This document shows, one piece after another, positions 48,332 to 60,953 of a stretch of 64,000 bases of DNA (position 1 is its first letter; every line of letters starts with the position of its first letter). The stretch spans positions 493,616 through 557,615 of the forward strand of contig JAOQAE010000004.1 in NCBI GenBank assembly GCA_025963725.1, written 5' to 3'. The notes beneath the pieces are model-generated. The model saw only the letters and a list, made by a program, of their open reading frames with translations. It was not told the origin of the DNA and did not search any database. The DNA is from Bacteroidota bacterium. Lineage in GTDB: Bacteria; Bacteroidota; Bacteroidia; 2-12-FULL-35-15. The translations under genes and the position numbers were made by a program.

Positions 48332-51300
48332 CTATTGGATCATTAACTTTTTGGTTAACAGGCTGTTATTTGTCCTCAGGTTCACAAAATACATTCCCTT
48401 CGGAAGGCCGGAAAGATCCGCTTCAATGCTTTCGGCTGCCATGTCCTTAAATTCATATTCGTATACTTTTTTCCCCATCAGGTCCATGATCTCGATCCTG
48501 CCATCCAGCTTTTCCGTAAGGTCGATGTTAATATAAACATGCCCGTCGCCGGGGTTAGGAAATACATTCAGTGAATTGCTCTTTGCAAACACAACATCTG
48601 TAATTCCCGTTGTTGAATTCACGGTGAACTGCTGATATACCTGTCCGCCAAAATCGGAAATGAAATTCTTCAGCGTTACTGCCGGCGTTACTTTCTTGAA
48701 ACGGATGTAGCCGCTGCCCTGTGCGGTGTTTGCCCAGAATGATAAGCCGTCCTCGCCCGAATCGGTCAGCTCAAACTCATAGCAGCCATCGGCAAGCGTT
48801 ACGGTATCCTTGTAAACTGTATTCGCGCTCAATACAGCGCCGTTCCTCGACCTGATGATCGTGCCCGCATCATCCTTCAGCGTCCACTGGTCTTCATACG
48901 GATAGTTGTTTGTCCGGAATTCGATCACGAACTGCGGCAGCATGATCGGCGGATAAGTATAATGCGAGGTTTTGCTGTTGTTGTAGGAATACTGGTCTGC
49001 CCCGCCGTTCGGGCTGCTCAGTGTAACTGTAAAATCGGTTGCAGAAGGCACCCAGGCAAATGTTCCCAGCGTTACTTCTGCAGTTTCCATAAATGGTAAG
49101 CTTCCTGTCCAGTTGTATACCGATGGTGTGCCGCCATTCAAGCCGTAGGTGATCGTAAGCGAGGTCAGCGTGGTTGATCCTGTGTTCTTAATGCGGATCA
49201 CGGGGTTGGTGCAAACAGGGTTTTTGCGTGCCCACATCTGGTTGGTGCTCGGGGAGAGAATGTCCTCGATGGCTGCATCCAATGTAAAATTAGGCGCGCT
49301 GTAGCTTACGAGCTGGTCTTCGATCTGGAAATAATCCCAGCCGCCGGTATTGATGTACGGCTCCACATCGTGATCCAGCACAGCTGTGTTTCCGGGCGTT
49401 ACAAAAGGCGTAAGCTCAAAGTCGTACGTCCACACTTCTGCGCCCGGGCACCAGTTCGCGCGGTCGTACACCCAGGTTCCGCCCTGCGGGTAAAGCGGGT
49501 TCACATCGCAGTTGTCGCGCCACACCAGCTTGGAGAATTGCTGCGTGCCATCCACTTTAAAGTAATGGTGCTTGGCGCAGAACTCGGCGCAATTCTCGGG
49601 AGTATCCATGCCATGTCCTGTGATCCGCGACTTCCAGCGGGTGTTGGCGGCGTTGGAAGGAATGTTGATCGTTAACGGTTGTAAATGACTTTCGATCGGG
49701 TCGCCGGATTGGCCGTAGTTGAACCCGCCGTTCCATAAATTCTGAATGCCTACCACATCGCGTGGAGGTGTTCCTTTGATCATAAGGAATTTCATGTCGA
49801 GCAGTTCCTGCCAGTTGCCGGCGGCAAGGTGCACGCTGTCGGCAAGCAGTGTGCGGTAATCGCTCACGTCGAAGGTCCATGTCCAGCCGCTTCCAAGGCT
49901 CAGGCCGTTCCCATAAGGCGTGATGTAGCGCGCTAATTCATAACGGTCTACTTTCGGAAATTTCCTGTACCAGTCGTAATACACGAGGTTCATAATACCG
50001 TCAGGCGTTACCAAAGTGGAATCTGTTGCGTTGCCCTGCGCATCGTACACGTAATTGTTGTAATACGCCGGCCATACATTCATGGTATCGATGGCGGCTC
50101 CCGGGTTATTGATCGAATCGTTGTAGGTGATCACCTGCACGGATGCATTCACGGTGGAATCAACCACCAGCACCGAATCAAGATGGGATGTGAACACGCC
50201 CTGCTCGAAGATCACATTCGGGCGAAGGGTTGTTTTTGTGAAATTGGTGTTAAGCTCAGCGGCAACGCGCAGCGGGTTATCCACCGTGGTGAAGGTTGCC
50301 GGCGCATGTGCTCCCGGGGCAGCATCGGCGGCTGTCATGTAATTGCCGTCGTCAAAATGATAATACACGGCGAGGTTACTGTAATTCGGGTGCGCAGCGT
50401 CTATCTGCCTGTTCATGTAAGCCTGGATCGTTGCAAGACTGAGCTCCGTATTGAACACGGCAAACTCGTCGATCTTACCTTCATACGTCTGCGATCCGGC
50501 CCAGTTTCCTTTGCCGATGCGGAAAGTGCGGATACCGTTCATGCGTTTTATTTTGCCCGAATTGCTTAACCACAGAACGCCGTTCAGGTAGATCTTCATC
50601 GAGCCTGTAGCTACATTTTTTGTGAATACCCAGTAATTCCATTGTCCTTCGCTTTCTGCCGTTGTTGCGGTTTTGCTCACGCGGTCGTAGGACGTCCCGC
50701 CGAAGCCTGCATCCCAGTATACTTTGCTGTCGGACCAAGGCATGTGCGAATTCAGGATCCTGTTGCCGGCAGAGTCGATCGCTTCGAAAGCCGTACCGTC
50801 CTGCGGCTGGTAAGCAGGCGTGCCGTATGCCCAGTAGGCCACGGTCACAAATGAATCAATTGCAGTGAGCTTGTTGTTCAGCGGCACATCAATATAGCCG
50901 TAGCTGTGAAAGGATGCGCTGCGGTCGCTTCCGGCATTGGTAAGCCCTGTGCTGTTTGCGGTGATGGAAGATGCAACAACATTGTTGGTTGCAGGAGCCA
51001 TATTATCATACATGATCTCGATCAATAAATTGGAAGTGCCATCCCAGTTGAACGGCGTTGTGAGCTGCAGGCTGTTCCAGCCGGTGGTGTTGAATTGCGT
51101 ATTGTGCGCATACACGGTAGTAAATCCGCTTGCGCTGAATGCCGCTGGCGTAAGGGAATCCAGCGTGCTTGCTTTTAAGCGGATGGTCATGTTGCCCAAT
51201 AGTCCGCCTGTCGACTGAAGATAGAACTGAAGCCCCGTGATGTTCCCTGCGCTCATTCCTGCCGAAGTCATTTCACTTGCTTTCCATAAATACTGGCAGC

Positions 51301-51769
51301 GCGAAACAGGGGCTGCAGCGCCGAAAGGCTTGTTATTAGACGTGCTGCCGCTTCCCACCTGGTGTGTGGATAAGGAAGTGGTGTCGGTATGCACCGTGCT
51401 GTATTGCCAGGAAGGCTGGTAAGAATACGAAGGCGTGTTCATGTAGGAGAAGCTGGCAGGTGTCGCCCCGTTCACAGTGTAGGTCGGCTGATGCACGAGT
51501 GCGCTGTCGAGCAGCCCTGTGTTCTTATAAAGGTAGGTGTACGTGAGGTAATCCCATTCCCCGCAGGCAGGGCTTTGTGCAGGATTGCACTTCAGGGTGT
51601 ACTGCATGAGGATCTTTTCGAAGCGGACCGTATCGGAAGGAAATACGAACCATGCATCCTGCGGCGCGCCGAAGTTGAAGGTTTGCACAACCACCGTGTC
51701 GCCGGGATTGGCAGATGCGGCAGCGTTGAATATTAAGGAAGCAAAAACAGCGTAAATGTATTTTTTCAT
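48332..51769 (-). CDS. PNGase F-related type IX-secreted protein with LamG insertion
   Basis: 1145 residues from the ATG at 51769 (a GTG lies just before). Signal peptide to about 20. Residues 23-80 resemble the N-terminal lobe of peptide-N-glycosidase F, including ACGEWD with Asp73 at the place of catalytic Asp60. A LamG/concanavalin-like domain (about 325-470, NYWVFTKNVATGSMKIYLNGVL, EGKIDEFAVFN) interrupts it. The PNGase fold resumes near 605 (RYITPYGNG, TFDVSDYRTLL) and ends with ITGHGMDTPENCAEFC (Glu729 at the place of Glu206) and YDRANWCPG. The site of PNGase Glu118 seems to be Gly or Asn. The C-terminal sorting domain starts NVFPNPGDGHVYIN. It probably binds or trims N-glycans, or is a catalytically altered relative. 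Confidence 0.82.
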   Translation of the reverse strand: MKKYIYAVFASLIFNAAASANPGDTVVVQTFNFGAPQDAWFVFPSDTVRFEKILMQYTLKCNPAQSPACGEWDYLTYTYLYKNTGLLDSALVHQPTYTVNGATPASFSYMNTPSYSYQPSWQYSTVHTDTTSLSTHQVGSGSTSNNKPFGAAAPVSRCQYLWKASEMTSAGMSAGNITGLQFYLQSTGGLLGNMTIRLKASTLDSLTPAAFSASGFTTVYAHNTQFNTTGWNSLQLTTPFNWDGTSNLLIEIMYDNMAPATNNVVASSITANSTGLTNAGSDRSASFHSYGYIDVPLNNKLTAIDSFVTVAYWAYGTPAYQPQDGTAFEAIDSAGNRILNSHMPWSDSKVYWDAGFGGTSYDRVSKTATTAESEGQWNYWVFTKNVATGSMKIYLNGVLWLSNSGKIKRMNGIRTFRIGKGNWAGSQTYEGKIDEFAVFNTELSLATIQAYMNRQIDAAHPNYSNLAVYYHFDDGNYMTAADAAPGAHAPATFTTVDNPLRVAAELNTNFTKTTLRPNVIFEQGVFTSHLDSVLVVDSTVNASVQVITYNDSINNPGAAIDTMNVWPAYYNNYVYDAQGNATDSTLVTPDGIMNLVYYDWYRKFPKVDRYELARYITPYGNGLSLGSGWTWTFDVSDYRTLLADSVHLAAGNWQELLDMKFLMIKGTPPRDVVGIQNLWNGGFNYGQSGDPIESHLQPLTINIPSNAANTRWKSRITGHGMDTPENCAEFCAKHHYFKVDGTQQFSKLVWRDNCDVNPLYPQGGTWVYDRANWCPGAEVWTYDFELTPFVTPGNTAVLDHDVEPYINTGGWDYFQIEDQLVSYSAPNFTLDAAIEDILSPSTNQMWARKNPVCTNPVIRIKNTGSTTLTSLTITYGLNGGTPSVYNWTGSLPFMETAEVTLGTFAWVPSATDFTVTLSSPNGGADQYSYNNSKTSHYTYPPIMLPQFVIEFRTNNYPYEDQWTLKDDAGTIIRSRNGAVLSANTVYKDTVTLADGCYEFELTDSGEDGLSFWANTAQGSGYIRFKKVTPAVTLKNFISDFGGQVYQQFTVNSTTGITDVVFAKSNSLNVFPNPGDGHVYINIDLTEKLDGRIEIMDLMGKKVYEYEFKDMAAESIEADLSGLPKGMYFVNLRTNNSLLTKKLMIQ

Positions 51770-52060
51770 CACAGGATAAATTAATTTACTGCTAAATTAA
51801 TATGAATGTGCGGAGCGCGCAACATATAATGCTGCGATTCTTAGCAATCAGTAGGGCATTTAAGATAAGTGGCTGAATAGGGGAATAAGTGGTTGAGGTA
51901 ATTGTCATTCCGGGCGAGACCCGGAATCTCTCTATAGTCATAAGGTGAAGAAAATCCCTTCAAGCCGCGACATAGAGATTGCTTCGTCGTGCCTCCTCGC
52001 AATGACTTGACGCGGCGTTTTCTTATCAATGGGTATTTTCCGACATTTTGCGTGTTATAC
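51770..52060. repeat. Long intergenic region with R5 and R4 repeat copies
   Basis: The 344-base gap before the hydrolase gene holds an R5-type pair at 51900-51935 (attgtcattccgggcgagac then ccggaatctctc), an R4-type copy at 51966-52000 (gagattgcttcgtcg then tcctcgcaatgac) and, at its end, the promoter of the next gene. I see no gene in it; an open frame across it is repeat-derived. Confidence 0.7.
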
Positions 52061-53818: not shown

Positions 53819-55894
53819 ATGGCTGTGAAAATTAGCATCAAAGGTGACAAAGAAACAAATGAGTATAAAGATGCATTAGCACTTAAACAAATTTTTGAAA
53901 AAGAATTTATAAATAAAGACACATCAGGAGAGATTTTAATAATCAGCGGGGCTACTCTTTTCGGACAGGACGTAAAAGATGTAGATCTTATAGTATTAGG
54001 CAATTTTGAGAATTATAGTTGTAAAGTAAAATCTAAAGCAGAGATTGGTTTTTATGATAATAGAAAGGAATTAGAATTAAAAGAAAGATTAATTTATATA
54101 AATAGCTTCTGCTTTGTAATTGAAACAAAAAGACAAAGAGCGGAAGACATTCAGTTAAATGGAATTCAACTTTTGGTGCGTTACAATGACAAACTTCACG
54201 ATGTAACTACACAAAGTGAAAAACAAAAATATGCACTGATGTCTTTCTTTAAAGATAGGCTAGATTTCACACCCTATATATGTAATTTTATTTGGTTTAG
54301 AAATATTAATTGGGAATCCATAAAGCAACTCTTAGGGAATAATGAGAATGTATTAACTAAACATAACTATCTTCCAAACACATTTTCATTAGCATTTTTA
54401 TTTCAACTTGCTTGTGTTCAATCAACCCCATACAATCTTACTGACAAGGATGGAAAGCCGAAAGGTTATTCTTCATTCAAATGTTTGAAAAAAAGTCAGG
54501 TTTTTGACTTGAAAGAAATGAATTCAACTTTCGAGCTGTTTGAAAAAGTGCAAGTGGGAGTTGGACAACTGACTCGAAAAAAAATAGAGCAGATCACAAG
54601 TAAGTTGCTCGATAATCAACAATATGCGCAGGCAATCGGTCAAAAATTTATTGTAATCTCAGGGAGAGCTGGGACTGGAAAAACGATTAAGCTGCTAAGA
54701 ATTGCCTGTGATTTAGCAGTCTCGAAAGGCGCAAGATGTTTAATTCTTACATATAACCATGCATTGGTAAGTGATATTAAAAGGACACTCGCGTTAGCTG
54801 AGATACCTGATGGAGTTGATACGTATACCGTAAATATATCAACTCTTCACAAGTTTTTTTTCGAACTCCTTATTGGTTTTGGGATTGTAAAGAATGAGCT
54901 TAATCCAGATGCGGATGTCAAGTATATTCCTAATTACCTAGAGAAGTATAATCAATATTTGGAAGAGTTATACGATTATATTGACAACGGTTTAATTCAG
55001 GAAAAAGAAATTCAAGAATTAATGCGAAGCAGACATGATAAGGTGGCTTGGGATTATATTTTAATAGATGAATCCCAAGATTGGGGTGACTTTGAGAAGT
55101 CAATAATTTTTCGAATATTTGGGAAAGAAAAGGTAATAATTGCAGATGGTGTAGATCAATTAGTTCGGACACAAAAAAAATGTAATTGGGTGAGAGGACT
55201 AAAACCAGATATTGATTTTAAAAAAACAAATGAAAAAAGAGGCCTTAGGCAAGAAGTAAATTTGGTTTCATTTATTAATGCTTATGCAAAGGAATTGGGA
55301 ATAGTTTGGGAACTTGAGCCGAAACAAGAGCTTATAGGTGGTAAAATAATTATTTCAACAAAGGACTACTCTAAAGAACTTCACCAAAAAGAAGTAAAAC
55401 GATGCAAAGAATTTGGAAACACGGAGTATGAAATGATGTTCTTGGTCCCCCCCAATCTTGTCAACGTAGTCAAGGGCTCAGGTGGAGAAGTTCGTAATTT
55501 CAAATTAGCAGAAGAGTTTAATCAAATGGGAATTAAAATTTGGGATAGTACTTCTAAGGACCTACGATCGCAGTACGTTGTAGATTTAACCCAGCATAGA
55601 TTATTACAGTATGAGTCTTGCAGAGGACTTGAAGGATGGACAGTTATATGTCTTCATTTAGATGAGTTTATAAAATATAAAATGGAAACTTTTACTGAAC
55701 AGGCTACCGAAGAGTTAGTGTTAGAATCATTTCAAGAAAAAAGAGATAAATTTGTTTATCTGTGGTCTTTAATTCCGTTGACAAGAGCTATTGATACCCT
55801 TGTTATTACAATAAAAGATAAAGAAAGCAAAATTGGGCAAACGTTAAGAAAAGTTTATGAAAAAAATCGAGACTTTGTTCAATGGATAGAGTAG
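53819..55894 (+). CDS. NERD-type nuclease/SF1 helicase fusion protein
   Basis: 691 residues, much richer in A and T than its neighbours. N-terminal nuclease-like region with Asp56 (DVDLIVL) and Glu102-x-Lys104 (FVIETKRQ), a PD-(D/E)xK pattern typical of NERD domains, followed by the Gln/His-containing LLVRYNDKLHDV. The helicase core has Walker A SGRAGTGKT (281-289), Walker B ILIDESQDW (415-422), a motif III-like ADGVDQLVRT, SCRGLEGWTVICLHLDEF and the motif VI-like PLTRAIDTLVI. It therefore combines a restriction-type nuclease with a UvrD-like ATPase. Such fusions occur in anti-phage and DNA-processing islands. No partner methylase is present. Function inferred. Confidence 0.85.
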   Translation: MAVKISIKGDKETNEYKDALALKQIFEKEFINKDTSGEILIISGATLFGQDVKDVDLIVLGNFENYSCKVKSKAEIGFYDNRKELELKERLIYINSFCFVIETKRQRAEDIQLNGIQLLVRYNDKLHDVTTQSEKQKYALMSFFKDRLDFTPYICNFIWFRNINWESIKQLLGNNENVLTKHNYLPNTFSLAFLFQLACVQSTPYNLTDKDGKPKGYSSFKCLKKSQVFDLKEMNSTFELFEKVQVGVGQLTRKKIEQITSKLLDNQQYAQAIGQKFIVISGRAGTGKTIKLLRIACDLAVSKGARCLILTYNHALVSDIKRTLALAEIPDGVDTYTVNISTLHKFFFELLIGFGIVKNELNPDADVKYIPNYLEKYNQYLEELYDYIDNGLIQEKEIQELMRSRHDKVAWDYILIDESQDWGDFEKSIIFRIFGKEKVIIADGVDQLVRTQKKCNWVRGLKPDIDFKKTNEKRGLRQEVNLVSFINAYAKELGIVWELEPKQELIGGKIIISTKDYSKELHQKEVKRCKEFGNTEYEMMFLVPPNLVNVVKGSGGEVRNFKLAEEFNQMGIKIWDSTSKDLRSQYVVDLTQHRLLQYESCRGLEGWTVICLHLDEFIKYKMETFTEQATEELVLESFQEKRDKFVYLWSLIPLTRAIDTLVITIKDKESKIGQTLRKVYEKNRDFVQWIE

Positions 55895-56326: not shown

Positions 56327-58447
56327 TTAATACTTCATCCCCAAATTATAAAACACAAAGCTCCAGATATCGGCGTATTCCTCGATCTGCTTGGAGGTTG
56401 GCTTTCCTGCGCCATGGCCGGCATTGGTGTCGATGCGGACAAGCACAGGGTTGGAGCCTTTTTGCTTTTCCTGTAAGGTGGCGATGAACTTGAAGGAGTG
56501 AGCAGGCACCACGCGGTCGTCATGATCGCCTGTAGTGACAAGCGTTGCAGGATATTCCACTTCTTTTACATTGTGCAGTGGAGAATATTTGATCAGGCAG
56601 TTGAACTCTTCCTGGTTGTCGCTGGTGCCGTAGTCGGATGCCCATGCCCAGCCGATCGTGAATTTATGATAGCGCAGCATGTCGAGCACGCCAACCGTTG
56701 GGATCGCTACTTTGGCAAGGTCGGGGCGCTGTGTCATTACTGCACCCACCAGCAAGCCGCCGTTAGAGCGCCCGTGGATCGCGAGCCTGGAGGAAGTTGT
56801 GTAATTCTCCTTGATCAGGTATTCTGCCGCCGCAATAAAATCGTCGAATACATTCTGCTTCTGGCATTTCGTTCCCGCTTTGTGCCAGTCTTCGCCGTAA
56901 TCACCGCCGCCGCGTAATCCCGGGATCGCGTAAACGCCGCCATTCTCGAGGAACACCGCGCGGTCGATCCTGAACTCCGGGGAATAGTATGAGTTGAACC
57001 CGCCGTAACCGAACAGGAAGCATGGATTGGTTCCATCCATCTTGATCCCTTTTTTATGCGTGATGAACATCGGAATTTTTGTGCCGTCCTTGCTGGTGTA
57101 AAACACCTGCTTGGTTTCATAATCCTCCGATTTAAAATCGATCTCCGGCTTGAACCAAACGCTCATTTTGTTGGTTACGATGTTGTATTTGTAAACGCTG
57201 GCAGGTGCGGTAAATGTGTTGTAGGAGAAGAAGGCGAGGCTGTCGTCCTTGTCGCTGTCGAAGCCTTCCACCTTGCAGATGCCCGGCAGCGTGATCTCGT
57301 TCTCTTTTTTGCCGTTCATGTCATACACATACAAACGGGTGGTCACATCCTTTAAATACTGCGCGATCAGCTTGCCGTTGCACAACGAAACATGCTCGAG
57401 CAGGTCGCTCGATTCAGGGATGATCTTTCTCCGGTTTTCCTGATCCGGCTTTTGGGTAAAGTCGATCTCCAGCAATTGATATTTCGGCGCGCCTTCATCC
57501 GTCACCACCAGCAGCTTGTTGCCATTGTTGTGGATCACGCTGTAGTTGTGCTCGAAGTTGCTCACCACGTAATGCCATTCGTCTGCTTTGGTAAGGTCTT
57601 TTACAGCCAGCGTGGTGCCGCTTGTAGATTCCGATCCGTATAGCAGCAACAGTTTTTCATCTTCCGTAACACCGGTAGAGAAATTCCGCAGTGGATGATT
57701 TTTATCTTCGTACACCAGCTCATCCTTCGCCTGCGCATCGCCGATCTTATGATAAAATACCTTGTGATATTCATTTTTGTTGGAGAGCTCGCTGCCGCCT
57801 TTCGGCTCATCGTAAGCGCTGTAATAAAAGCCGTTTCCTTTCCAGGCAATGTCGGAGAATTTTACCCACTTGATCTCATCCGTCAGCTTTTTCCCGCTTT
57901 CGATCTCCATTGTATAGATCTCGCTCCAGTCGCTGCCTGCGCGGTTGATGCTATATGCTAAATATTTCCCGTCCTTGCTTACGGAAAGCCCGCCGAGGGA
58001 AGCCGTGCCATCTGCCGCAAGCGTGTTCGGGTCAAGCAAAAGCTTCGCAGTTCCGTTAACGCCTTCCTGCACATACAGTACGCTTTGGTTCTGGATGCCG
58101 TCATTCTTATAGAAGAAATAGCGCTTTCCTTTTTTGAAGGGAGAGCTCACCTTTGCAAAGTTCCAGATCTTCGTAAGGCGTTCCTTGATCTTGTCGCGGA
58201 AAGGAATGGAGCCTAAGTAATCGAAGGTCACCTTGTTCTGCGCCTTCACCCATTCGCCGGTCTCTGCCGATTTATCATCTTCCAGCCAGCGGTAAGGATC
58301 AGGCACTTTTGTTCCGAAGTAAGTATCGGCCGAATCGGTTTTTCGTGTAACAGGATAATTCATCTTTTCTGTTTCTTTGGTTTCTTCATTGTTGGAGCAG
58401 GCCGCAAAAACGGAAAGCAGGATGATGGGCGTTAGCTTTTTTAACAT
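56327..58447 (-). CDS. Prolyl oligopeptidase family peptidase (S9A) lipoprotein
   Basis: 706-residue serine peptidase cutting after proline in short peptides. Lipobox SVFAAC makes it a lipoprotein of the envelope. N-terminal beta-propeller with PDPYRWLEDD (family mark) then the catalytic alpha/beta-hydrolase domain. Ser561 in IHGRSNGG, Asp644 in GDHDDRVVP, His678 in NAGHGAGK; the GGGDYGEDWHKAG block and YGTSDNQEEF are typical. Similar to the F. meningosepticum enzyme in length (705). It complements the S46 and DUF885 peptidases of this window in peptide breakdown. Confidence 0.95.
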   Translation of the reverse strand: MLKKLTPIILLSVFAACSNNEETKETEKMNYPVTRKTDSADTYFGTKVPDPYRWLEDDKSAETGEWVKAQNKVTFDYLGSIPFRDKIKERLTKIWNFAKVSSPFKKGKRYFFYKNDGIQNQSVLYVQEGVNGTAKLLLDPNTLAADGTASLGGLSVSKDGKYLAYSINRAGSDWSEIYTMEIESGKKLTDEIKWVKFSDIAWKGNGFYYSAYDEPKGGSELSNKNEYHKVFYHKIGDAQAKDELVYEDKNHPLRNFSTGVTEDEKLLLLYGSESTSGTTLAVKDLTKADEWHYVVSNFEHNYSVIHNNGNKLLVVTDEGAPKYQLLEIDFTQKPDQENRRKIIPESSDLLEHVSLCNGKLIAQYLKDVTTRLYVYDMNGKKENEITLPGICKVEGFDSDKDDSLAFFSYNTFTAPASVYKYNIVTNKMSVWFKPEIDFKSEDYETKQVFYTSKDGTKIPMFITHKKGIKMDGTNPCFLFGYGGFNSYYSPEFRIDRAVFLENGGVYAIPGLRGGGDYGEDWHKAGTKCQKQNVFDDFIAAAEYLIKENYTTSSRLAIHGRSNGGLLVGAVMTQRPDLAKVAIPTVGVLDMLRYHKFTIGWAWASDYGTSDNQEEFNCLIKYSPLHNVKEVEYPATLVTTGDHDDRVVPAHSFKFIATLQEKQKGSNPVLVRIDTNAGHGAGKPTSKQIEEYADIWSFVFYNLGMKY

Positions 58448-58576
58448 GGGGTTTTTGTTTGGATGATCAAAAGTATGAAAATTAAGTTCCCGGGAAGAAA
58501 TATTTGACCAGCGGAAAAACAGGATGATGAAAGGTGCATCAACGATGACCCGGAATAAAGCCCTGTTTATGCCTGC

Positions 58577-58996
58577 TTAGGGCACATGCACATAGTGCGG
58601 GTTTGAAAAGAAGGAGAGTGTGCCGTCCGCCTCTTCGAAGGCAAAGGTGTAAGCATACGTTTGTGAGTGATAAACATTAAGATCGCGGGGATAATAAACA
58701 TTTACCTGGGTGGGTGACAGCCGGAGAGCTAATTCACCATCGCGATAAATAACGATCTTTGAAATAAGAGAAGCATCTGGGATAAGGTCATAACGGATAT
58801 GATAGTACAGCTGCACATACGGATACGCATTCACCTGTATGCTGTCAACAATGAAAAATTCGGTGTGCGGGTTTTCAGGTGCAAAAATATTGCTTTCCGG
58901 CGAGAGCTCGCCCAGCTCGCTTTTTTTTCTGCAGCCAAAGCTAAAAAGAATGAAGAGCGCTATTGATAAAACAAAAAGCCTGCGGGGAAGGATCAT
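58577..58996 (-). CDS. Lipoprotein B' of duplicated envelope module
   Basis: 139 residues with lipobox LFSFGC (Cys22) after a long hydrophobic leader. The mature part has SNIFAPENPHTEFFIVDSIQV followed by a fibronectin-III-like sandwich (strands VQLYYHIRYD, KIVIYRDGELALRL, YAYTFAFEEADGTLSFFSN). It follows gene A' by only 2 bases. Its build and the short NPxD/P(E)xF-V(I)DSxxV segment match lipoprotein B at 59767-60165, so it is the diverged second copy. Function unknown. Confidence 0.72.
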   Translation of the reverse strand: MILPRRLFVLSIALFILFSFGCRKKSELGELSPESNIFAPENPHTEFFIVDSIQVNAYPYVQLYYHIRYDLIPDASLISKIVIYRDGELALRLSPTQVNVYYPRDLNVYHSQTYAYTFAFEEADGTLSFFSNPHYVHVP

Positions 58997-58998
58997 AG

Positions 58999-59760
58999 TT
59001 AGCGGATATTAATGAGTAAAGATAACGAGTAATCCTGGTCAAATTCACGTGTGATCGAAATGCTGTTCAGGCTTAGCAAGGGTGTTTCCGAATAACGCGG
59101 TTTTTCTAATTTGCCCGACCAATAGATCAGGACGGCAGAAGCTACGATCCCTGCAGGGATGATCACACAGGAAAGAGTGGAAAGCCTGTTGTTCTTCTTT
59201 ATATAGGATTCGTAGATTGCCTTTTCGGAGTAATATGTCTCCTTATACATGCTGATGTTGGACAGTGAAATGGAATGCTCATACCCTTCCTTTGCGATGT
59301 GGGCATTTTCAAGGTGTTCATTCATCAGTTTTGCGTTCTGCCTGTATTTAAAATAAGCAAAGCCTGAATAAAGTAATGTTGCAGGTAACACAACATAGCG
59401 GGCCCCGGCCTTTTTCAGCTTATAGGATGATAGTTCCCTCCGGTACTCAGAGTAGGCCTCCGAGTTTTTTAAGCTCTTAACGCAGATCGTTGTTTTGCCT
59501 TCGGTTATAGTGATCGTATCGGTAAACAATTCTTTGGTCGGTGCCCATGCCCTCACAATATATTTGCCTTCTTTAAGCAGGATCGGATTTTTTGTCTGCC
59601 TGAGCAGCGCCGTATCCAGCCGTACTGTAACCGGTGTTGGTGATCCGAAATAGATAATTGCCTTTCCTTTGCCCTGCACGATCTCCTGCGCTATAACCGC
59701 CGAGGAACAGTGTATAAAAGCGAGGCACACAATTATCCGTAACAGGCTTGAAAAGTTCAT
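58999..59760 (-). CDS. Two-helix membrane protein A' of duplicated envelope module
   Basis: 253 residues. Signal peptide (about 1-24), a PEGA-like beta domain (about 30-95: ILLKEGKYIVRAWAPTKELFTDTITITEG), helix 1 (about 120-137), a coiled or helical periplasmic/cytosolic segment (140-190), helix 2 (about 194-214) and a beta tail ending YSLSLLINIR. The same plan as protein A at 60170-60898. Immediately followed by B' (2 bases) and preceded by B (6 bases), so the four genes are one operon. No enzymatic motif. Confidence 0.72.
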   Translation of the reverse strand: MNFSSLLRIIVCLAFIHCSSAVIAQEIVQGKGKAIIYFGSPTPVTVRLDTALLRQTKNPILLKEGKYIVRAWAPTKELFTDTITITEGKTTICVKSLKNSEAYSEYRRELSSYKLKKAGARYVVLPATLLYSGFAYFKYRQNAKLMNEHLENAHIAKEGYEHSISLSNISMYKETYYSEKAIYESYIKKNNRLSTLSCVIIPAGIVASAVLIYWSGKLEKPRYSETPLLSLNSISITREFDQDYSLSLLINIR

Positions 59761-59766
59761 GTAAGA

Positions 59767-60165
59767 TCAGGGAGTTATAAAGTTAAACGCATCGGATTGG
59801 CCGGTTTTGCCATTATCGTATTTAAGCGCTGCGGTATAAGAATATGCCGTTCCCGCAACCGCCGTATTATCATACAGCGCTTCCGTAAGAACGGAAGCAT
59901 GGGAAGTCCGGTTGATCGTTTTAATAGCAACGCCGTTCCTGTAAAGTATTGCTCCCTGGTACATCTCGGTTGATGAAGTAAGGCTGACCTTAGTGGCATA
60001 AACATGAAAGCCGACCTCCATTCTTCTCACGCTGTCTATTCTTACAACCTTCGGGCCCGCATATTCGTGGTCGTAAGGATTGTCATTCAGCTGTACGTCA
60101 TCCAGCTTGCTTTTGCAGCCCAGCAGGAAGAATGCCGCCGCAAGTATGTAGAATGCTTTTTTCAT
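59767..60165 (-). CDS. Lipoprotein B of duplicated envelope module
   Basis: 132 residues from the ATG at 60165 (frame open further up, but inside gene A). Lipobox FLLGC (Cys17). After CKSKLDDVQLNDNPYDHEYAGP comes a fibronectin-III-like domain (GFHVYATKVSLT, GAILYRNGVAIKTI, YSYTAALKYDNGKTGQS). It starts 4 bases after the stop of A. The two lipoproteins share build but little identity. Confidence 0.72.
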   Translation of the reverse strand: MKKAFYILAAAFFLLGCKSKLDDVQLNDNPYDHEYAGPKVVRIDSVRRMEVGFHVYATKVSLTSSTEMYQGAILYRNGVAIKTINRTSHASVLTEALYDNTAVAGTAYSYTAALKYDNGKTGQSDAFNFITP

Positions 60166-60169
60166 ATTT

Positions 60170-60898
60170 CTAAAGTTCAATTCGTAAGCCATATCGCAGG
60201 CCCCTGTTCTCAAGATCCGGGTAAATGTTAAAGTGGAGCCTGGAAAATGCGCTGCGTTCCGTGAATTGCGGCACAGGAGTGTTTTTTTGCCTGATAAGAA
60301 TCCTTATATAGTTAACAAACAAAGCGGCTGAAACACCATAGATCCCGTACTCTGTTTTTTTTAAATTATCGTACTTCCTTTTATACGTTGCGAAATTTGC
60401 TTTTTCTTCATCCATTTTTGACTGATTCCCCGTTCCCGAATAATAGGTCTTTGCATCCAATGCCTTGTTGTATTGCTTTTGCGCAAACTGCTTATTTACG
60501 AAGATCCCTGTGCCTATTGTTATTCCCATCCAGATAGGCGAAACAAAAAAACGCCTGTTCCTTACGCGCATGAATTCAGCATAATCTTTTTTGTATTGAA
60601 TATATTCCGGCAGGAGCTTCAGCATAAAGCTATATTTGGCGGTATCGTTCACGTTCACAAGAACCACCGTATCCCTCATAATTGTTTTAGGCGACCAGAT
60701 CTTTACATGATGGCTGCCGGCACTAAGCATGAAGGTTGTGTCGGGAGAGCGGAAAATATTTTCATCGATCCTGTAAACCGCATCCGGCTCGCCGTAGATC
60801 CGTAAATGAAGAAAGCCCTTCTCCTGTGTTTGGGCCTGGGCAATGCTGCAAACGAAAGAACATAAAACAAGAAGGGACAATAATTTTTTGAGCGGCAT
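60170..60898 (-). CDS. Two-helix membrane protein A of duplicated envelope module
   Basis: 242 residues, first gene of the four. Signal peptide (LLSLLVLCSFVCSIAQAQ). PEGA-like domain (28-92: MLSAGSHHVKIWSPKTIMRDTVVLVNV). Helix 1 (about 117-135, PIWMGITIGTGIFVN), a charged helical segment with KANFATYKRKYDNLKK, helix 2 (about 184-203), and a beta tail ending GLRYGLRIEL. PEGA domains usually sit in the periplasm and bind sugars or peptidoglycan. Promoter element at 60946-60953. Confidence 0.72.
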   Translation of the reverse strand: MPLKKLLSLLVLCSFVCSIAQAQTQEKGFLHLRIYGEPDAVYRIDENIFRSPDTTFMLSAGSHHVKIWSPKTIMRDTVVLVNVNDTAKYSFMLKLLPEYIQYKKDYAEFMRVRNRRFFVSPIWMGITIGTGIFVNKQFAQKQYNKALDAKTYYSGTGNQSKMDEEKANFATYKRKYDNLKKTEYGIYGVSAALFVNYIRILIRQKNTPVPQFTERSAFSRLHFNIYPDLENRGLRYGLRIEL

Positions 60899-60945: not shown

Positions 60946-60953
60946 CAAATATA
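60946..60953 (-). promoter_or_regulatory. -7 element of the A-B-A'-B' operon
   Basis: On the - strand TATATTTG, 47 bases before the ATG of A. No clear -33. Confidence 0.45.

Follow-up and report, generated by a model that had tools for sequence, protein, structure and literature searches.

An apparently undescribed cell-envelope module of paired A-type and lipoprotein genes, present as two paralogous arms at a Bacteroidota locus

The described proteins and complexes closest to the locus analysed here are proteins with a PEGA domain (PF08308), proteins with the domain DUF5683 (PF18935), lipoproteins with fibronectin type III (FN3) domains, and the extended BAM complex of F. johnsoniae (PMC12611786). 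All 21 genomes in the sample around the window (the window being the whole 64,000-nucleotide stretch of DNA that was analysed) contained DUF5683, and the one paper found to name this domain, as judged by its title, concerns nematode receptors. A search of titles and abstract openings returned no description of a platform protein paired with a lipoprotein in this manner and no named system, in agreement with the original prediction, which had known of no named system with this layout. The A-B and A′-B′ gene pairs, listed here with the associated sequence elements, apparently constitute an undescribed cell-envelope module.

A: 60170-60898, minus strand; 242 aa protein (basis: sequence, predicted structure and fold search)
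B: 59767-60165 from its ATG, minus strand; 132 aa lipoprotein with lipid-bearing Cys17 (basis: sequence, model and fold search)
A′: 58999-59760, minus strand; 253 aa paralogue of A on a separate old branch (basis: BLASTP, profile comparison and tree)
B′: 58577-58996, minus strand; 139 aa lipoprotein, paralogue of B (basis: profile comparison and partner tree)
TATATTTG: 60946..60953, minus strand; fits TAnnTTTG, about 48 bases ahead of A (weak evidence)
TACTTTTG: 58468..58475, minus strand; TAnnTTTG element ahead of the downstream S9 peptidase gene (equally weak evidence)

The genes A-B-A′-B′ all lie in one orientation, on the minus strand, and are separated by 4, 6 and 2 bases; on re-examination, the coordinates, strand and gaps of the original prediction were found to be correct. 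For B, the open reading frame list places an alternative upstream start, a TTG, at 60213. A divergent DUF885 gene lies 5′ of A, and a same-strand gene for an S9 prolyl oligopeptidase lies 3′ of B′. TAnnTTTG is a promoter element of Bacteroidota, and between positions 58300 and 61200 it was matched four times on the strand of the genes (twice within B′) and three times on the opposite strand; because of the further matches inside B′ and on the other strand, the two elements listed above are weak evidence. The short gaps between the four genes contained no TAnnTTTG match. A single transcript would likely span all four genes, and TACTTTTG is compatible with a separate promoter for the S9 peptidase gene. 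Sigma-70-type promoters (7 vs 5.1 in shuffles) and terminators (1 vs 2.9 in shuffles) were also sought and set aside.

The S9 prolyl oligopeptidase family, represented in the window at 56327-58447, was also found near the module in loci L089, L093, L094, L098, L099 and L102; in total, of the 43 loci searched, three further ones from the window's genus and six from family f5 have relatives of this peptidase close to the module. A functional tie between the module and the peptidase was considered and dropped, and no function is drawn from this neighbour because the arrangement differs between loci. Elsewhere in the window, positions 48335-51772 (minus strand) encode a 1146 aa protein that has a Por secretion tail as well as a peptide-N-glycosidase F C-terminal domain and a laminin-G-like domain. 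Positions 53819-55894 (plus strand) encode a protein of 691 aa that contains an AAA domain and is matched in PADLOC by a NERD+UvrD candidate defence model (E 1.6e-8).

The original prediction had described the locus as an old tandem duplication in which A and A′ share one plan and both pairs were kept, and had proposed profile-profile comparison of the two arms. By BLASTP, A and A′ were 27% identical (E 2e-8), and comparison of profiles from independent alignments gave E 2.8e-14 (1.1e-12 for the mature parts and 4.4e-6 for the helices alone). The shared plan of A and A′ was supported. B and B′ matched weakly by BLASTP (E 0.014) and significantly by profile-profile comparison (E 4.3e-10). The comparisons were repeated with mature parts because signal peptides alone score well: B and another lipoprotein, C (see below), matched at E 2.6e-6 by hhalign over the signal peptide only and at 0.074 in their mature parts, and C was rejected as a relative of B. 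The mature parts of B and B′ matched at 2.4e-5. Given the significant mature-part matches and the fall of the B-C match, the two arms (A-B and A′-B′) are paralogous as judged by sequence comparison.

The tree built from 34 A-type proteins placed the A rows on one branch and the four A′ rows on another (support 91/91 and 89/76); a wider A′ group, into which rows of f22, f33 and f5 also fall, was weakly supported (82/58) and had some long branches. In the window's genus, five genomes have A-B only, and a sixth (L036) has A-B plus an interrupted A′/B′ copy. In f22 and f33, each genome examined has a single A′-type gene and no pair other than the A′-type one. In L041 (family f24), A-B-C converges on B′-A′ of the opposite strand. 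The A′/B′ copy in L036 (4381-11410, G026) is interrupted by about 6 kb, within which lies an ORF of 1754 aa whose start resembles a signal peptide; the adjoining A-B is intact. Because the two types lie on separate tree branches and each arm occurs without the other, these comparisons indicate that A-B and A′-B′ arose by an old duplication and represent two old subfamilies, the arms of which can be lost singly. Therefore, the old divergence and the retention of both pairs at this locus were supported, whereas a local tandem event was not, since the arms occur singly.

A 15-row profile search of the class matched 40 of 395 genomes, in 14 of 196 genera; 36 of these matches were at E under 1e-10 and came from seven families, and four were weak part matches. 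The module is patchy within the window's family, where 9 of the 36 genomes sampled matched. In a sample of the phylum, 42 of 395 genomes matched, and outside the window's genome the matches were weak (1.6e-9 at best) and mostly of the beta domain only. The A-family profile matches other Bacteroidota proteins mostly over positions ~25-94, and at least some of these proteins have repeated PEGA-like domains. A 421 aa lipoprotein-like protein in L044 (5067-6332) and L045 (4701-5966) matches A at E about 4e-6 over query residues ~37-155.

The original prediction had also suggested looking for the pairing in other genomes, and this was evaluated in 67 stretches, made up of 66 loci and the final 10 kb of the window, with A-type genes from seven families. 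For 41 of 42 A-type genes, the next gene encodes a lipoprotein and starts -59 to +11 bases from the stop, compared to 17 of 398 other ORFs under the same script rule (Fisher p 8e-43, which overstates the certainty because the genomes are related). Nor can the 42 genes be counted as independent, since 14 are from one f9 genus and 12 from the window's genus. The gap between the A-type and lipoprotein genes was exactly -4 in ten cases; starts were picked mechanically, and longer overlaps may therefore be artefacts. A first lipobox rule gave 43 of 46 for A, 20 of 36 for the PEGA-DUF5683 genes considered below (six genes being in both sets) and 17 of 392 for the background; this rule had missed lipoproteins visible by eye and was loosened after the first result, for targets and background alike, with the window added. 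In the one exception, L087 (2415-3134), the B gene is located further downstream, behind an inserted gene that separates it from A and that resembles a PIN-domain (toxin) gene. The neighbours of A-B vary by lineage and include genes that are presumably parE/parC-like and tyrS-like, the S9 peptidase gene and others; in L083, L084, L090, L095 and other f9 and f20 loci, A-B lies beside or between the parE-like and parC-like topoisomerase IV genes. Because the flanking genes differ between lineages, it is the pair that is conserved and not the neighbourhood. With significant profile matches between the arms and the pairing retained in other genomes, the original prediction withstood both of the refuting conditions that it had named.

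A tree of 28 partner lipoproteins kept the A, A′ and f9 grouping with 3 label changes, the minimum being 2, and 0 of 200 shuffles was as low; one A′-type row (G121) was placed among A rows, and the deepest forks were weak. The partner tree largely mirrors the A tree. The distances among A-type proteins and among their partners had a correlation of 0.85 (0 of 2000 permutations), which is uncorrected for species relatedness and owes part of its strength to gene linkage. For each of the six pairs among the four two-arm genomes, B was closer to B, and B′ to B′, than B to B′. One explanation is that these envelope proteins are co-expressed without physical contact and are paired only through shared regulation. 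Although the distances of linked genes correlate anyway, direct adjacency in seven families with differing surroundings and the clade-matched partners argue against this explanation, which we regard as quite unlikely.

The A protein consists of a signal peptide, a PEGA/transthyretin-like beta domain, a helical hairpin with two hydrophobic stretches, and a C-terminal beta hairpin. Structure models were built from 7 rows each, the 34 A and 28 B sequences having been collected later, and the A model is of modest confidence (mean pLDDT 64.5, pTM 0.38). It contains the beta domain at residues 27-92 (block pLDDT 66-90), a helix at 97-113 followed by long helices at 121-156 and 159-206, and the C-terminal beta hairpin at 222-241, which is unreliable (pLDDT <40). 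Transthyretin-like domains were among the fold-search matches to residues 27-92, with one match under E 0.001 (6hif_Y, 7e-4), and comparison of A to the sequences of solved structures gave nothing at E 0.001 (best E 0.15, listing at E 1). A matched 0 Pfam families at E up to 1 and did not reach the Pfam gathering score for PEGA; PEGA was also absent from the Pfam matches of A′, and PEGA matches at E 0.1 or better were found for 3 of the 34 A-type relatives, the best at 0.00096. The term PEGA-like used in the original prediction has weak support in sequence. DUF5683 was absent from the Pfam matches of the 34 relatives. Six profile set-ups comparing the hairpin and tail of A to DUF5683 gave a best probability of 6% (E 0.0059), and the best match of the A hairpin to the hairpins of PEGA-DUF5683 proteins was 13% (E 0.0023). 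Homology of the A hairpin to DUF5683 was not detected in the six set-ups, despite the similar layout and tail.

The best 18-residue windows flanking the loop of the hairpin had Kyte-Doolittle averages of 0.6 to 2.5 in the 34 A-type proteins, several being <1. On the presumed exported sides of the 34 sequences, K+R numbered 129 and 115 and D+E 23 and 33; on the loop sides, K+R numbered 83 and 107 and D+E 71 and 47. The usual charge pattern of inner-membrane hairpins is the opposite, and the flank charges argue against a simple inner-membrane hairpin with exported ends. Because the flanks do not fit the textbook hairpin, an outer-membrane location is possible for A. A C-terminal phenylalanine, which is common in outer-membrane proteins, is present in 18 of the 34 proteins. 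The original prediction had proposed a periplasm-to-outer-membrane link or sensor in which the lipoprotein binds the PEGA protein; in the form considered here, it is an envelope-spanning tether or sensor in which A of the inner membrane and B of the outer membrane are joined across the periplasm. The two hydrophobic helix stretches, the exported beta domain and the lipoprotein partner are consistent with such a link, whereas the higher positive charge on the presumed exported sides runs opposite to the usual rule, and B extends only 115 residues past its cysteine, which is short for the span. We consider a tether or sensor unlikely.

B and B′ each have a lipobox cysteine. In B, the lipid-bearing cysteine is adjoined by the segment LNDNPYDxxYxG, followed by an FN3-like domain; the NPxD segment is absent from the B′ sequence. 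The best solved-structure match of the B model (mean pLDDT 64.4) was to a construct containing an FN3 module (E 2.5e-3), and no structure matched at 0.001. Comparison of B to the sequences of solved structures gave nothing at E 0.001 (best E 0.048, listing at E 1), and neither B nor B′ matched Pfam at E up to 1, B′ having one unrelated-looking NCBIfam match. The prediction of FN3-like lipoprotein partners was supported in part: both have the lipobox, and an FN3-like domain in B was suggested by the fold search. A Pfam scan of ten partner lipoproteins found PKD in two, fn3 in three (two above cut-off) and no match in four, including an f9 B; the remaining one matched propeller models only, far below the cut-offs. 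The heads of the partners therefore vary, with both FN3 and PKD present, and propeller heads are suggested. Seven f5 A-type genes carry a 204-223 aa lipoprotein (C) instead, and two of three tested match PKD domains; the C gene of L041 is related to the f5 C lipoproteins (E 1.4e-11, in an alignment that includes the signal peptide).

Of the A partners, 24 of 41 carry the pattern N..D..[YF]..[PG] no more than 40 residues from the cysteine, as do 23 of 28 PEGA-DUF5683 partners; it occurs in only 3 of 82 other lipoproteins, each of which belongs to one of the module gene clusters. This contrast is descriptive because the pattern was derived from the partners themselves. The A′-type and C partners are without the motif, and therefore docking by way of it cannot be general. 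C-x-K-(D/E)2 is reported as the optimal surface-export signal in Capnocytophaga (PMC5080379). It was found in 9 of 13 adjacent f9 partners (9 of 41 A partners overall, all f9), in 1 of 82 other lipoproteins and in 0 of 28 PEGA-DUF5683 partners. The sequences of B (CKSKLD) and B′ (CRKKSE) do not match, and this signal, which may not be that of the window's lineage, was rejected for them. SusD homologues, sought to calibrate the signal of the window's lineage, gave one sub-threshold match and none above the cut-off. Alternatively, A could act in the sorting, retention or surface export of its own lipoprotein, as a dedicated factor that reads the anchor-proximal segment and sets the destination of the lipoprotein. 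This would account for a recurrent segment beside the cysteine while the heads differ, and for the Capnocytophaga signal in f9 partners, but not for the mismatch in B, B′ and the PEGA-DUF5683 partners; we assign a sorting role a low probability.

The interpretation that we think probable is that A-B and A′-B′ form two paralogous two-protein envelope complexes, each composed of a constant membrane-anchored platform and a dedicated lipoprotein with a changeable head. The A-type protein would be exported, with the PEGA/transthyretin-like domain kept outside the cytoplasm and the long helical hairpin holding the protein in a membrane. The lipoprotein made directly after it (B or B′) would be the dedicated partner that docks on A in a physical complex, in many lineages probably via its anchor-proximal segment, and would present its head domain, FN3-like in the window. 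A would thereby serve as an adaptor or scaffold, a platform that is non-enzymatic and stays constant, and the exchangeable working part would be the head of the lipoprotein.

An outward search from the beta domain led to the PEGA-DUF5683 proteins in other classes of the phylum, most of them ~300-470 aa. Of eight members tested, three matched PEGA (best E 9.5e-7) and seven matched DUF5683 at E up to 0.1 (best 2.6e-11), and the hairpin matches DUF5683 by profile (E 1.6e-11). A lipoprotein gene is located directly 3′ of 28 of 36 PEGA-DUF5683 genes, a rate that applies to strong members because the loci were the best-scoring matches of the phylum search (119 of 395 genomes match, many with plain DUF5683 proteins). 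Four of the eight unpaired genes precede another such gene, one is at a cluster end, one is near a contig end, and two are weaker matches (L214, L215). Tandems in which PEGA-DUF5683 and lipoprotein genes alternate (A-L-A-L) are present in L165 and L198. A broader proposal, which we judge to be slightly short of an even chance, is that of an undescribed phylum-wide envelope system in which a PEGA-hairpin platform is combined with a lipoprotein that docks by its anchor-side segment, with the heads (FN3, PKD, perhaps propeller) being swapped. The A-B-A′-B′ operon would be a two-channel version, and the DUF5683 and A types, the hairpins of which have no detectable relation, would follow the same logic. 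The platform-lipoprotein pairing would provide DUF5683-kind proteins with a role that can be tested, and the cysteine-proximal motif would open a way to study how particular lipoproteins are positioned in Bacteroidota.

Compared to the known systems, the PEGA-DUF5683 proteins are like A in having a signal peptide, one or more PEGA-like domains, a two-helix hairpin, a C-terminal tail and a downstream lipoprotein gene, and they differ in that their hairpin matches DUF5683, whereas that of A does not detectably; their partners range in size from 135 to 748 aa. The beta domain of A may resemble PEGA/transthyretin domains, and A itself is without a Pfam match. One 146-residue chain of the F. johnsoniae extended BAM complex (PDB 9n2d) matched A in fold at E 0.046, which is too weak to indicate kinship. 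B resembles the FN3 lipoproteins in its lipobox and its putative FN3-like domain, but unlike them, it is tied to an A-type gene.
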